A DNA stretch of 64,000 bases from Luteitalea pratensis (lineage in GTDB: Bacteria; Acidobacteriota; Vicinamibacteria; Vicinamibacterales; Vicinamibacteraceae), in the NCBI RefSeq assembly GCF_001618865.1, contig NZ_CP015136.1, positions 3,135,001 through 3,199,000 of the forward strand, read 5' to 3'. The position numbers and the translations under genes were made by a program. This document shows, piece by piece, positions 9,596 to 35,197 of this stretch (position 1 is its first letter; the number at the start of each line of letters is the position of its first letter). Under the pieces are notes generated by a model. The model did not search any database, was not told where the DNA came from, and worked only from the letters and a program-made list of their open reading frames with translations.

Positions 9596-10227
9596 GGCGT
9601 TGGTGCATGGCTGCGGACCGTCAGGTAGTGGGTCTGCCGTTGGAGCGCTGGCATGTCGGCGGCCCGCGGCGGCATGATCGTGGGATGAAGTCGAGAGTCC
9701 ATCTGGGTGTCGACGGCGCCGGCGTGATCGTCGCGTAAGCGCTGACCGAGGCGATAGTGGACGACGCGACCGTGGGCATCTGATTAGCTCGGCAGCTGGC
9801 GACATCGCCAGCGTCACGGCGGCCGCGGCCTACGACACCGTCGCCTTCTATGAGGCCGCGAGCGCGCGCCACGCGCGGGTCGTGGTGCCGCCGACCAAAA
9901 CTGCAAAGGTGTCGCGGCGCGGGCCGCGCTCGCGTGCACGCGAGCGCGCGATCACCGACGTGGACGCACTCGGACGGCGCCAGTGGAAGAAGGTCTCGGG
10001 CTACCATCGGCAGGCCCGGCTAGAGAACGCCTTCTTCCGCTACAAGTCCATCATTGGCGATAGCCTTTGCGCTCGTAGTCGCCATGGCCGGGACGTCGAG
10101 GCGCGCCTTGCCTGTCGTATTCTGAATCGGATGACCGCGCTTGGCAGGCCGGAGCCGATTGCGATCAGTCGGTGACGACGCCGGGGCGGGCGAGTTGCGA
10201 GTCCAGTGTCGAGCCATGCACAACGCC
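9596..10227 (+). mobile_element. IS5-family internally deleted element R1-b, both ends present
   Basis: The left terminal repeat GGCGTTGGTGCATGGCT (9596-9612) and right repeat AGCCATGCACAACGCC (10212-10227) bound a 632-bp element. The interior keeps the 5' leader and ATGAAGTCG start, then jumps to HLGVDGAGVIVA, TEAIVDDATVGI and GDIASVTAAAAYDTVAFYEA, and ends with GYHRQARLENAFFRYKSIIG (including the catalytic Glu region) and a TGA. Several stop codons and a large internal deletion make it non-autonomous. AGT flanks both ends and could be a 3-bp target duplication. Confidence 0.85.
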
Positions 10228-27014: not shown

Positions 27015-27438
27015 GGCGTTGGTGCACGGCTGCTGGGCCCCGGCGATAGGCGGCTGGGAGCCGCTGGCGTGTGGCGTTGGTGCATGGCTGCGGACCGTCA
27101 TGTAGTGGGTCGGCCGTTGAAGCCGCTGGCATGTCGGCGGCCCGCGGCGGCATGATCTGGTTGGGGCGACAGCTGCAACGCTCGGCCGGCGCCAATGGCA
27201 GAAAACCTCGGGCTACCACCGGCAGGCCCGCGTGGAGAACGCCTTCTTCCGCTACAAATCCATCATTGGCGATGGCCTTCGCGCCCGCAGTGTAGGTGGC
27301 CGGGATGTCGAGGCGGGCCTTGCCTGCCGCGTCCTGAATCGGATGACCGCGCTCGGCAGGCCCGAGTCGTCTCCGAACACTCGGTGACGAGCCGTATGTG
27401 GGGGGCTGCGAGTCCAGTGTGAGCCATGCACCAACGCC
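27015..27438 (+). mobile_element. IS5-family internally deleted element R1-f with duplicated left end
   Basis: An isolated left repeat (27015-27031) is followed by a complete deletion derivative from 27073 (GGCGTTGGTGCATGGCT) to 27438 (AGCCATGCACCAACGCC), 366 bp with perfect matching ends. The interior holds the leader, then jumps to RRQWQKTSGYHRQARVENAF-type sequence (readable with one frame change), FFRYKSIIGDGLRA and the C-terminus up to TGA. It cannot encode a transposase and looks MITE-like. Confidence 0.85.
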
Positions 27439-27453
27439 ACGCAGACCTGTGGC

Positions 27454-28968
27454 CTACGACCGATTGGCGACGTGGCTCGAGCCGAAGCGCTCCACGAGCA
27501 GGCCGTGACGCAGGCCGCGGTCGCCGACCGTCAGTTCGTGTTTGCCGAGCAACTCCATCACCGTGCGGACGATGCAGGCGCCGGCGAGGATGACGTCGGC
27601 GCGCTTGGGCTGCAGGCCAACGATCGCGGCGCGCTTGTCCAGCGGCGTCGTCCGGTATTGCTCGATCTGTCGATCGATTTCGTTGCGCGTGAGCACAGTG
27701 CCCTGGATCGTGCCGGGATCGTACTTCGCCATCGCGTAGCGCACCGCCGTCAGGTTGGTCACGGCGCCGCCCATGGCGACGAGTGTCTCCGGCGACAGGC
27801 GGTCGGCGATGCGCGACAGGTCCTCGGCGATCGCCTTCATGGCCTCGCGGAGCACTTCATTCGACACCGCGCCGTCCAAGCCGTAGCGCTCGGTGTAGCG
27901 CACCGCGCCGACGTTGACGCTGAAGCGTTCGGAGACGTGGTCGCCCTCGCCGAACGTGAACTGCGAGCTGCCGCCGCCGGTGTCGAACACCACGAGGTGG
28001 CCGGTGGCGGAGGGAAGCCCGGCTTGCACCGCCAGGTAGGCGAGGCGACTCTCTTCATCACCCGAAATGACCTCCACCTTGACCCCGGTTCTGGCGCGGA
28101 TGATTTCCAGCACGTCGGCCGAGTTCGTGGCCATCCGCAGGCCGGCCGTACCAACGGCAGCGATGGCGATGCAACCGGCCGACTGTGCCTCGTCCACCAT
28201 GCCCTTGATGGCTGCGGCGGTTCGCTCCGCCGCCTCCGTCGCGATGGCGCCGCCTTCCTTCACACCTTCGCCAAGCCGCGTGAGCTCCGCTCGATCGGTG
28301 ACCGTCTTCCACGTGCCGTCAGCACCGGCCTCGGCGATATGGAACTTCACCGAGTTGGTGCCCACGTCGAGCACCGCGTATCGCGGCGGCGCGCCCGACA
28401 GCGTCGCGGCCAGCCCGCGCGAGTAGTTCGTGTTCACGTAGCCGGCAAGACCGAGTGAATCGACGGCGGCGACAACGGCTGCGGCGTCCTCCATTTCGAC
28501 CGCGATCGTTCGCGTCCTCACGCTGTCCACCGTCACCTCGGACAGCTCCGACGTGCAGGCTCCCACGACGTAACGTACCCGATGCTTGTGCACCCTGGCG
28601 GCGCGCACCGCTGCCGTCGGCTCGATGAGCTCGGCGAGGAACTGGTCGAACGTGTAAGTGTCGCGCGTCAGATCGGGCGGGGTGACCCGCATGGCGTTGA
28701 AGACGCCTCGCACAACCGCGGCACTGGCGGGAAAGCCCTCCTTCATGACAGGGATCCACTGCTCCAGGCCCGCGTCGTTCACCTGCTGGAGCACCTTGAT
28801 GTCGAGCAGGCCCGCACGGACCTTGACGTTGCTGCCCTTCTCGGTGAGCAGGTAGATCTCGTCGGTCTCCTGCACACCCTTCGTCTCCAGCGCGGCGAAC
28901 ACCGCTTCAGCGCGCGCGAAGCGCGTGCCGAACGTCCGCCACTCCCAGCGCGGCGTGATCTCGGACAT
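27454..28968 (-). CDS. CYTH-like domain fused to Ppx/GppA phosphatase
   Basis: This is a 504-residue protein. Residues about 1-190 look CYTH-like: WEWRTFG near the start, NVKVRAGLLDIK, VHKHRVRY, ELSEVTVD and IAVEMED supply alternating charged residues of a tunnel. Residues about 196-500 are a Ppx/GppA fold: AVLDVGTNSVKFHIAE (phosphate loop 1), VGTAGLRMATNS, DEESRLAYLAV, VVFDTGGGSSQFTFG (loop 2), AMGGAVTNLTA and RADVILAGACIV. It should hydrolyse polyphosphate or pppGpp-type substrates in the cytoplasm, with the CYTH part possibly binding the triphosphate end. Two bp after a stand-alone CYTH gene. The fusion is uncommon. Confidence 0.85.
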   Translation of the reverse strand: MSEITPRWEWRTFGTRFARAEAVFAALETKGVQETDEIYLLTEKGSNVKVRAGLLDIKVLQQVNDAGLEQWIPVMKEGFPASAAVVRGVFNAMRVTPPDLTRDTYTFDQFLAELIEPTAAVRAARVHKHRVRYVVGACTSELSEVTVDSVRTRTIAVEMEDAAAVVAAVDSLGLAGYVNTNYSRGLAATLSGAPPRYAVLDVGTNSVKFHIAEAGADGTWKTVTDRAELTRLGEGVKEGGAIATEAAERTAAAIKGMVDEAQSAGCIAIAAVGTAGLRMATNSADVLEIIRARTGVKVEVISGDEESRLAYLAVQAGLPSATGHLVVFDTGGGSSQFTFGEGDHVSERFSVNVGAVRYTERYGLDGAVSNEVLREAMKAIAEDLSRIADRLSPETLVAMGGAVTNLTAVRYAMAKYDPGTIQGTVLTRNEIDRQIEQYRTTPLDKRAAIVGLQPKRADVILAGACIVRTVMELLGKHELTVGDRGLRHGLLVERFGSSHVANRS

Positions 28969-28970
28969 CG

Positions 28971-29738
28971 TTACTGCCCGGCCTCAACCTTCTTCAGCAG
29001 CTCGGTGAAGTGCTTGAGCGCCCGGTTGGTCTTGGGCTGCTGCTCGGCGGTGAGGTCGAGCCCCTTCTTCTCCAGGAAATCGCGCGTTTCGGTGGCGATG
29101 TGGAACGCGTCGTCCGGCGTGGCTTTGGTCGAGAGCTCGAGGATGCGCGAGCCGTCCGGATACATCCACAGTTCGGCGACGAACTTCCGTTTCACGCCGT
29201 CCGGGGTGAACTCGAGCTTCAGGAGGTTGATCGGCCCCAGCACCGACAGCTGCGACAACTTCAGTCCCTCCGGTGCATTGGCCTTGTAGAAGGCGCGCTG
29301 CTCCTTCGTGAACAGGTCGCGGGTCTTCATCTTCTTCAGGATCACGGCCCGCACGTCGTCGGCGGTCGTCTTGCCCTTCATCGACGCGGAACAGACGAAC
29401 CCCTTGGGCATGGTGTCGACTTCGACCTTCACCGAGGTCGACTGCCGGACTTCGGGCGACAGCGTTTCCGGATCGACGGGACGCAACTTGATCACGGTAT
29501 CGCCGCCGCCGCCCTGGATGCGCCTCGCCCGCACCACGACGCCGGCCTTGCTCAGCGTCAGGTCCGGCGTGTCGAAGAACACGACCTGGCGAATCTCCGC
29601 CTTGAGCGGGTCCATGCCCAGAGCATCGGCCGTGGAGCGAATCGCCGAATCGACGACGGTCAACTTCAGCTCGACGCTGTCGGATTGCTTCATCAGCCCG
29701 AAGACTTGCTCGACCTGCTTGTCATTCAGCGTTCGCAT
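28971..29738 (-). CDS. CYTH domain protein (triphosphate tunnel type)
   Basis: This 255-residue protein has CYTH features: SVELKLTV near residue 21 (variant of ExExK), FFDTPDLTLSKAGVVVRARR, DTVIKLRPVD, SVKVEVD and RKFVAELWMYPDGSRILELS, so the acidic and basic tunnel strands are all represented. CYTH proteins hydrolyse inorganic triphosphate or thiamine triphosphate, or bind polyphosphate (VTC-type). It is followed at once by the CYTH-Ppx/GppA fusion, suggesting joint work on polyphosphate or an alarmone. Cytoplasmic; no signal peptide. Confidence 0.85.
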   Translation of the reverse strand: MRTLNDKQVEQVFGLMKQSDSVELKLTVVDSAIRSTADALGMDPLKAEIRQVVFFDTPDLTLSKAGVVVRARRIQGGGGDTVIKLRPVDPETLSPEVRQSTSVKVEVDTMPKGFVCSASMKGKTTADDVRAVILKKMKTRDLFTKEQRAFYKANAPEGLKLSQLSVLGPINLLKLEFTPDGVKRKFVAELWMYPDGSRILELSTKATPDDAFHIATETRDFLEKKGLDLTAEQQPKTNRALKHFTELLKKVEAGQ

Positions 29739-33324: not shown

Positions 33325-33753
33325 TCAGACCGCGGCGGCACGCACGAGGAGGATCGGAATATGGCTTTTGTGCCTGACGGCAGTGATCGTGCTGCCGTGC
33401 AACAGATCGCCCAAGAAGCGGTGGCCGTGCGTGGTCATCGCGATCAAGTCGCACTGCTCCTGCTCGGCGGCCTTGAGAATCTCGGTTGGCGGGTTGCCCA
33501 GCGCCAGGTGAATCCGCACCTGCAATCCCTGCGCGCCGAGCGCCGCAGCCTGCTGGAGGAGATAGTCGCGGTCGGCCTTCATCTCGTCGGACTCCGCGAG
33601 CTTGAGATCATCGTAGTGACGCGCTACCCAGCCGTCCGCCACATGGATCAGCAGCAGCTCGGACGGGCACAGCGACGCCAGCCGGGCCACGTGCGGCACG
33701 AGGCTTCGATCGGCCGGGCCATTTTCGAGCGCGACGAGAATTCTCTTGTACAT
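33325..33753 (-). CDS. Universal stress protein, UspA family
   Basis: This 142-residue protein has the UspA fold signature: YKRILVALENGPADRSLVPH at the start, LLLIHVADG, then CDLIAMTTHGHRFLGDLLHG and STITAVRHKSHIPILLVR, which carries the ATP-binding loop region. The length is typical. It follows the NRAMP gene after 7 bp in the same direction, so the pair is probably one transcript, as is often seen for transporter-associated Usp proteins. Confidence 0.92.
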   Translation of the reverse strand: MYKRILVALENGPADRSLVPHVARLASLCPSELLLIHVADGWVARHYDDLKLAESDEMKADRDYLLQQAAALGAQGLQVRIHLALGNPPTEILKAAEQEQCDLIAMTTHGHRFLGDLLHGSTITAVRHKSHIPILLVRAAAV

Positions 33754-33760
33754 GATGCCG

Positions 33761-35158
33761 TCACCCGAGCAGCCCGATGATCCAGGCGGTGATGCCGAAG
33801 TAGTCCGACAGGTACTTCGTGTTCAAGCTCACGATGAGCCCGGCGGTCGTCCACGCCAGCACTTTGACCCAAACGGGATTGACGAAGGCTCCCATCTTGG
33901 TGCGACTGCTCGTGAAGGCGACGAGCGGCACGACTGCGAACGATAGTTGCAGACTGAGAATCACCTGGCTCAACACCAGGAGCGCGGCCGTGCCGTGCTC
34001 GCCGTAGAACGCGGTGACCAAGACCGCCGGGACGATGGCGATGAGCCGCGTGATCAGCCGCCGCAGCCAGGGACGGAGCCGAATTCTGAGGAAGCCTTCC
34101 ATGACGATCTGCCCGGCCAGCGTGCCCGTGAGGGTGGAGTTCTGGCCAGAGGCCAGCAACGCGAGTGCGAAAAGTGTGCTGGCGATCGGCACGCCGAGCG
34201 TTGGCGAGAGCAGCCGATAGGCGTCCTGGATCTCTGCGACCTCCTGCCCCCGGCCGTAGAACGTCGCGGCCGACACGACGAGGATTGCGCCATTGATGAA
34301 GAGCGCGAACATCAGAGCGATCGTCGAATCGATGGTCGCGAACTTGATCGCCTCGGCCTTGCCACCCGCCGTGCGTTCGTACTTCCGCGTCTGCACAATC
34401 GACGAGTGCAGGTACAGGTTGTGCGGCATCACCGTCGCCCCGAGGATGCCGATCGCGATGTACAGCATCTCGGGACGCCGGACGATCTCGAACGTCGGCA
34501 AGAACCCGCCGGCGACGGCGACCATGTCCGGCCTCGAAAAAAGAATCTCTGCAAAGAAGCATCCGCCGATCGTCAGCATGAGCGTGATGACGAGCGCCTC
34601 GATGTACCGAAATCCCTTGTTCTGGAGGTAGAGCACGGCCAGCACGTCGATAGCTGTGACGCACACGCCCCAGATCAGCGGGAGGCCGAACAGCAGATTC
34701 AGCGCGACCGCCGATCCGATGACCTCAGCGAGGTCGCACGCGCAGATCGCAATCTCGCAGAGCACCCACAGCACAAATGACACGCGCCGGGAGTAGTGAT
34801 CGCGGCAGGCCTGCGCCAGGTCGCGGCCGGTGACGATCCCGAGCCTCGCGCAGAGGGCTTGCAGCAGGATCGCCATGAGGTTGGAAAGCAGGATGACGCT
34901 GAGCAGCGTGTAGCCGAACTGGGAGCCGCCGGCGAGGTCCGTCGCCCAGTTCCCCGGGTCCATGTAGCCAACGGCCACCAGGTACCCCGGCCCCGAGAAC
35001 GCGAGCAGCTTCCGCCAGAAGCCCAGTGTGTGCGGCACCAGAATCGTGTTGTGCGCCTCCGGCAGGCTGACGGCGGTCTGCGGCAGTCGCCAGGCCGCGC
35101 GCGGCGCGGGTTCCTGCGCTTGCGGACTGCCGGGGAGGAATGGAGGGCCTTCGGTCAT
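33761..35158 (-). CDS. NRAMP-family divalent metal transporter (MntH-like)
   Basis: It carries the two hallmark metal-site motifs: [20 protein letters not shown] in helix 1 and [20 protein letters not shown] in helix 6. About eleven hydrophobic helices follow in the usual order, ending [20 protein letters not shown]. The family imports Mn2+ or Fe2+ with protons across the inner membrane. The ATG at 35158 is used; a GTG at 35197 is an alternative. The N-terminal 45 residues are Pro/Ala-rich and cytosolic. It lies directly upstream of a UspA gene. Confidence 0.92.
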
Positions 35159-35197
35159 GCCGTCCCGCGATCCTATGCTCGCGGGCCCCTCGATCAC

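Follow-up and report, generated by a model that had tools for sequence, protein, structure and literature searches.

Enzymes of the CYTH fold and exopolyphosphatases of the Ppx type are known kinds of protein. However, the locus considered here, with its own N-terminal tunnel subfamily, the fusion of that subfamily to a Ppx/GppA domain, and the operon, is a new combination of them. It lies in a 64,000-nucleotide stretch of Luteitalea pratensis (hereafter the window), which spans positions 3135001-3199000 of a genome of 7,480,314 bases in a single contig. Several described systems approach it from different sides. The Aquifex exopolyphosphatase (PF02541) has the same short Ppx core as the fusion but lacks the N-terminal tunnel domain, and displays GGGSTE where the fusion of the window has GGGSSQ. 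The CYTH/TTM enzymes, such as AtTTM3, NE1496/NeuTTM, E. coli YgiF, and SaTTM, share the eight-stranded tunnel fold predicted for both tunnel parts of the locus; however, they possess an ExExK signature, whereas the N-terminal domain of the fusion (N domain) has RxExR and no Pfam match, and the neighboring tunnel protein (CYTHw) has SxExK. The yeast VTC complex, which makes and translocates polyphosphate, likewise uses a tunnel domain acting on polyphosphate, and CYTHw can be aligned to polyphosphate polymerase structures with Z-scores of 8-9; in contrast to this synthetic system, the partner domain in the fusion belongs to a degrading family. The YgiF-type proteins with their CYTH-CHAD architecture also couple a CYTH tunnel to a second polyphosphate-linked domain, that second domain being a Ppx catalytic domain in the fusion instead. 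The CHAD domain has been described as a polyP-binding domain (PMC6537752).

Both genes of the pair are on the minus strand. The first (28971..29738) codes for CYTHw, a triphosphate-tunnel (CYTH) protein of 255 aa with the SxExK variant of the ExExK motif. It is separated by just 2 nt from the fusion gene (27454..28968), whose 504-aa product combines the N domain (residues 1-192; 28393..28968), which defines a CYTH-fold subfamily lacking a Pfam or NCBIfam model, with a Ppx/GppA domain having the short Aquifex-type core (residues 193-504; 27454..28392). An earlier note on this DNA had proposed a CYTH gene beside a CYTH-Ppx/GppA fusion; both open reading frames are indeed found at these coordinates, and the predicted folds and the PF02541 match agree with that description. 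Its author was aware of no characterized protein with this layout, and in the open-licence PMC literature we too found neither a CYTH-Ppx fusion nor this operon described.

The N domain had no hit in Pfam at E <= 10 when scanned on its own and none of relevance in NCBIfam; a profile search of the PDB with the N alignment returned nothing better than E 0.17, the CYTH protein 1yem being among its matches with 0.56. Its AlphaFold2 model, computed with 11 sequences, has eight strands with a mean pLDDT of 95.2. A Foldseek search of the PDB with this model recovered 40 matches at E <= 0.001, with ranks 1-20 comprising triphosphate-tunnel/CYTH proteins throughout: the upper matches are thiamine triphosphatases (top match 5a64, 2.1e-6), CYTH proteins, and plant tripolyphosphatases, and those below rank 20 are in part Mediator Med18-type chains. 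VIA-align, whose lists cannot establish that other folds are lacking, aligned 151 residues to 2een (Z 12.6, rmsd 3.7). The N domain is hence predicted with high confidence to be a CYTH tunnel, as surmised in the earlier note, which had proposed modeling this half; a non-tunnel fold did not emerge.

Across 91 aligned N domains, the invariant residues include R7, E9, R11, F13, K58, W71, P80, K128, E141, and E158, and a further set of basic residues (K49, R51, K76, and R130) is retained at 98%. Of the two CYTH/TTM signatures defined in PMC8233210, ExExK (the hallmark) and ExE, each is half lost in the N domain. The former is replaced by RxExR (R7-x-E9-x-R11) in 91/91 sequences; in the latter, located in strand 8, the first glutamate (E158) is present in 91/91 but the second position is less than 85% conserved, with the N domain of the window itself retaining a glutamate there. 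Given that the first glutamate of ExExK and a conserved second glutamate of ExE are both missing, catalysis by this domain is doubtful, and from these motifs it may bind rather than cut its ligand.

CYTHw scores below the cut-off of the Pfam CYTH model PF01928 (E 0.0015; 18.8 vs 23.2 bits). The model reaches E <= 0.01 in 11 of the 29 members of the CYTHw family alignment, at best 1.3e-5. A genome-wide CYTH family search found one further CYTH gene elsewhere in the genome and did not list CYTHw. Its structural model (mean pLDDT 93.3) matches the AtTTM3 tripolyphosphatase in Foldseek (1.6e-9) and 2gfg in VIA-align (Z 16.2, rmsd 2.8, 187 residues), making it a high-confidence prediction of the triphosphate-tunnel fold. 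Here too ExExK is modified, to S21-x-E23-x-K25, and both E23 and K25 occur in 32/32 members of the family. The CYTHw alignment (A3) comprised 28 of 31 relatives (over 200 aa) and the window protein; a further alignment (A5) comprised 27 and the window protein.

The claim of the earlier note that the second half of the fusion is a complete Ppx/GppA phosphatase is borne out by the match of residues 217-494 to PF02541 (2.4e-53; 181.9 bits against a cut-off of 27) and by the conservation of the loops DxGxNS, GTxxxR, DxGGGS, and GGxxT in the Ppx alignment, which place it within the Ppx/GppA family. Its best PDB match (4.3e-45) is to a core of the type seen in 1t6c, 1t6d, and 2j4r, structures that we take to be those of the Aquifex aeolicus exopolyphosphatase. 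Among NCBIfam models, the exopolyphosphatase-only TIGR03706 ranks first (2.2e-62, below its cut-off), and the domain additionally matches the GppA model (1.3e-29) and GppA structures. The fusion is the only protein with a PF02541 match in the 7.48-Mb genome, which also contains two matches each to PP_kinase (PPK1) and PPK2.

Genome contigs scanned with the N alignment yielded 568 confirmed relatives. The best 80 of these, a selection leaning towards the form seen in the window, were kept and combined with loci from other searches to give the set of 103 N loci to which the locus counts below refer. Besides the window's own, 34 of them are fused to Ppx, 37 are split, with a separate Ppx gene nearby, and 32 have no Ppx in the stretch examined; two broken or truncated loci (L069 and L088) were counted as split and one at a contig end (L056) as fused. 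The earlier note had also proposed surveying how often the two genes co-occur: CYTHw adjoins the fusion at 29 of the 34 fused loci, and because this neighbor recurs across several phyla, the pairing is not a matter of chance. Uniqueness of the fusion to this genome was also considered and is ruled out, since fused relatives are common across phyla; those placed in the tree belong to Pseudomonadota, Actinomycetota, Chloroflexota, Verrucomicrobiota, and Acidobacteriota.

Within the phylum of the window, a whole-protein search of 297 genomes found, among the matches listed, both parts spanned only in the window's own genome, the other genomes matching the N domain or the Ppx domain singly. The N alignment matches 23 of 396 same-phylum genomes, namely the window's own, 19 with strong matches, and 3 with weak ones (about 1e-20 to 1e-24); 8 of the 19 share one family (f31) and hence are not independent. 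Phage records matching the Ppx part number 10, none of which covers 80% of the query, and one of 89 matching plasmid records covers at least 80% of it. The matching stretch of the Cupriavidus plasmid carries no annotation. On the Cupriavidus megaplasmid, the CYTH-fusion pair has a group II intron maturase upstream of it (L128:9336-10718).

The alignment and tree were restricted to Ppx domains of at least 285 aa, which kept 69 of 72 N-linked rows, the window included. In the resulting midpoint-rooted tree of 94 Ppx domains, these 69 form one clade (SH-aLRT 96), with the remaining 25 lying outside it. This quick tree needs two changes for the fusion, which may nevertheless have had one origin. 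The fused forms are further distinguished by the residue after GGGS[ST] (position 336), which is Q in 33/33 fused relatives; among the 35 split relatives it is E in 30 and Q in 5. The glutamate at the equivalent position is presumably part of the active site in the E. coli and Aquifex Ppx proteins, and Q336 might alter catalysis in the fused domains.

The genes around the N loci point beyond a hydrolase pair. Module labels (porin, DASS, and so on) derive from BLAST comparisons with one or two references per label, the families of these having been set by Pfam; six further proteins were checked against Pfam, and the five of them that are module members gave the expected families. In the 103-locus set (including the best 80 of 568), SulP occurs at 10 of the 34 fused loci; TctC, TctA, and a Na/Pi transporter occur at 26, 23, and 11, respectively, of the 37 split loci; and the 32 loci without Ppx feature a second, PF01928-type CYTH protein (CYTHp) at 29, an OprO/OprP-type porin at 21, DASS at 21, PiT at 14, and TctA at 7. 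DASS, TTT, and SulP are all absent from the stretch examined at 23/34 fused, 8/37 split, and 4/32 Ppx-less loci. Around 24 control Ppx loci without N, we found DASS at 2, PiT at 1, and Na/Pi at 1, and no porin, TTT, SulP, or CYTH of either kind; all these controls are from the window's phylum (20 picked for long contigs from the whole-protein search, and L040-L043, the short L044 being excluded), whereas the split loci are from other phyla. All 19 same-phylum genomes with strong N matches combine an OprO/OprP-type porin and an NE1496-type CYTHp in one cluster, along with DASS in 18 and TTT in one (L136), and 9 of the 19 clusters include PiT; no module genes were found with the 3 weak matches. 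That DASS and TTT replace each other in one gene set, and that CYTHp stands in for Ppx, suggests that the members of each pair do a similar job. PPK2 lies near N at 1/34 fused, 0/37 split, and 1/32 other loci, arguing against a general link with that kinase. Response regulators (RRs54) were dropped as a clue to the module, as they are also present at 5 of the 24 control loci. Two variants of the arrangement may be recorded: in genomes of family f31 (L039, L137-L141, and L143), two N-type genes in each cluster flank the DASS gene, one on each side, and in a Magnetococcales locus (L105:3227-6510), two CYTHp genes enclose N and a calcineurin-like phosphoesterase comes next.

The linked proteins offer clues to the substrate. 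CYTHp retains both ExE and ExExK, in the latter with E5 and E7 invariant and K9 at 95%, and its profile matches NE1496 structures at 1.1e-24 and 5.1e-24. The title of PDB entry 3typ names NE1496 an inorganic triphosphatase, and PMC3440374 presents the CYTH enzyme of Nitrosomonas europaea as a specific tripolyphosphatase. Comparison of the profiles of the three tunnel families with each other gave nothing significant (probabilities 0.23 to 1.7%), so the case for their common origin rests on fold and not on sequence. The porin of locus L075 matches OprP and OprO at about 1e-17. The N-linked DASS proteins align with INDY and plant dicarboxylate carriers and score 194 bits against the NCBIfam DASS model, just under its cut-off of 198.6. 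In 21/21 of them, the canonical second SNT motif of VcINDY is replaced by SKTxR. Five other DASS genes were considered (three from the window's own genome, L161, and L163); in the four read for the motif, L163 being outside the ORFs tested, SKTxR occurs in 0/4 and SNT in 3/4. The two extra basic residues of SKTxR would suit an anion of higher charge, for example phosphate or an oligophosphate.

Taking these observations together, we favor, with somewhat better than even confidence, the view that the pair is a cytoplasmic set of inorganic oligo/polyphosphate hydrolases representing a branch, made up of enzymes alone, within a wider module for acquiring phosphate or oligophosphates. Domains, predicted folds, gene neighborhoods, the Ppx clade, and motif changes form the basis from which we infer the substrates, activities, cell location, transport direction, and role of the N tunnel. 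More specifically, the Ppx domain of the fusion would strip polyphosphate of its terminal phosphates; the fused N tunnel, with its conserved Arg/Lys residues and reduced metal site, would hold or measure a short chain or pass the chain on to the Ppx domain; CYTHw would cut or bind short chains such as tripolyphosphate; and Pi would be recovered at the end. The earlier note had suggested that the two genes handle polyphosphate or an alarmone triphosphate. The part of this concerning inorganic (poly)phosphate is backed by the fold, by the exchange of Ppx for the NE1496-type enzyme, and by the phosphate-transport neighbors, whereas the N domain, having lost part of the CYTH metal-binding signature, may bind rather than cut; an alarmone role is less likely.

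The wider module would consist of the N protein, an exchangeable phosphoanhydride hydrolase (Ppx or the NE1496-type triphosphatase), a DASS, TTT, or SulP transporter, and Pi transporters. It probably serves phosphate acquisition, and perhaps the import and breakdown of oligophosphates; for the transporter-linked relatives, acquisition of Pi or oligophosphates is likely. We tentatively suggest a more far-reaching scheme, which is speculative as a whole: in many phyla, short phosphate chains would enter by way of an OprO-like porin and of a DASS, TTT, or SulP transporter turned to this new use, be held in the non-canonical N tunnel, and be cut by Ppx or the NE1496-type triphosphatase, with the Pi passing to PiT or Na/Pi, the fusion of the window then being the tunnel and polyphosphatase merged into one enzyme. 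This link to transport is weakest for the window's own form, since no module transporter was found near the pair and most fused loci are without DASS, TTT, or SulP in the stretch examined. References for these three, PiT, Na/Pi, and the porin had no hit at 15-42 kb of the window; the single porin O/P gene and the three DASS genes of the genome lie away from the pair, and none of these DASS proteins has SKTxR.

Of the alternatives, the one that survives best, a real possibility even if we lean against it, is that the N tunnel does not catalyze but senses short phosphate chains, gating the phosphate transporters or the Ppx domain in a role comparable to that of the SPX domains associated with eukaryotic phosphate transporters and with the VTC polymerase. 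The constancy of N across module types in which hydrolase and transporter vary, and the retention of its basic residues alongside a reduced metal site, would be expected of such a sensor; however, one glutamate per motif (E9 and E158) is invariant, and the contact with transporters is hypothetical. Rather unlikely, in our assessment, is a second alternative, wherein carboxylates or sulfate are the cargo of the linked transporters, with which the tunnel and Ppx genes merely share regulation while performing a separate function in polyphosphate storage. DASS and TTT are indeed best known as carboxylate carriers, and along with SulP are associated mainly with carboxylates, sulfate, or bicarbonate; the nearest solved DASS structures are, by their PDB names, dicarboxylate and citrate carriers; and a carbonic anhydrase follows SulP in locus L048. 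Nevertheless, genes for PiT, Na/Pi, and OprO/OprP-type porins share the same clusters, and the N-linked DASS carries its two additional basic residues at the second SNT site of VcINDY. Finally, that the fusion is a GppA-type pppGpp phosphatase, its tunnel holding the 5'-triphosphate while Ppx removes the terminal phosphate and the pair tunes the stringent response, is improbable: the family scores do not split Ppx from GppA, but the best NCBIfam match is the exopolyphosphatase-only model, the genes linked to the relatives encode phosphate transporters and anion transporters, and the partner that can take the place of Ppx is related to NE1496.

Returning to the pair itself, three observations bear on its origin in this genome. 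The N part is absent from the 4 genus mates and 6 family mates examined (the 6 including the 4), and the nearest relatives by tree path are from Pseudomonas, other Pseudomonadota, and a Chloroflexi bin. Directly downstream of the pair, on the plus strand, lies a remnant of an IS5-family transposase (27121..27381) that corresponds to the last 61 positions of the NF033579 profile (E 2.7e-12, below its cut-off) and has no Pfam match. These three observations fit a horizontal gain of the pair, loss in the genus and family mates being a possible alternative. The pair is also flanked by copies of an 18-bp element that looks like a dispersed REP-type repeat. With up to 2 mismatches, it occurs ten times on both strands of the window, at 9596, 11814, 18464, 27015, 27073, 27421 (-), 29890, 40605, 40932 (-), and 50034 (-), as against 0 matches in 100 shuffles. 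Further along the window (33325-35197), a gene for a universal stress protein comes directly after one for an Nramp-type metal transporter, both being on one strand.

The entry of extracellular polyphosphate into cells is called an unresolved question in a study of an archaeon (PMC13318637). If the module works in the way we propose, it would provide concrete genes for polyphosphate uptake, namely those of a porin, a carrier, a tunnel protein, and a hydrolase. It would also add a CYTH subfamily that Pfam and NCBIfam do not model, define an atypical SKTxR subgroup of DASS transporters, and furnish a function for many unnamed or loosely named “Ppx/GppA” genes.
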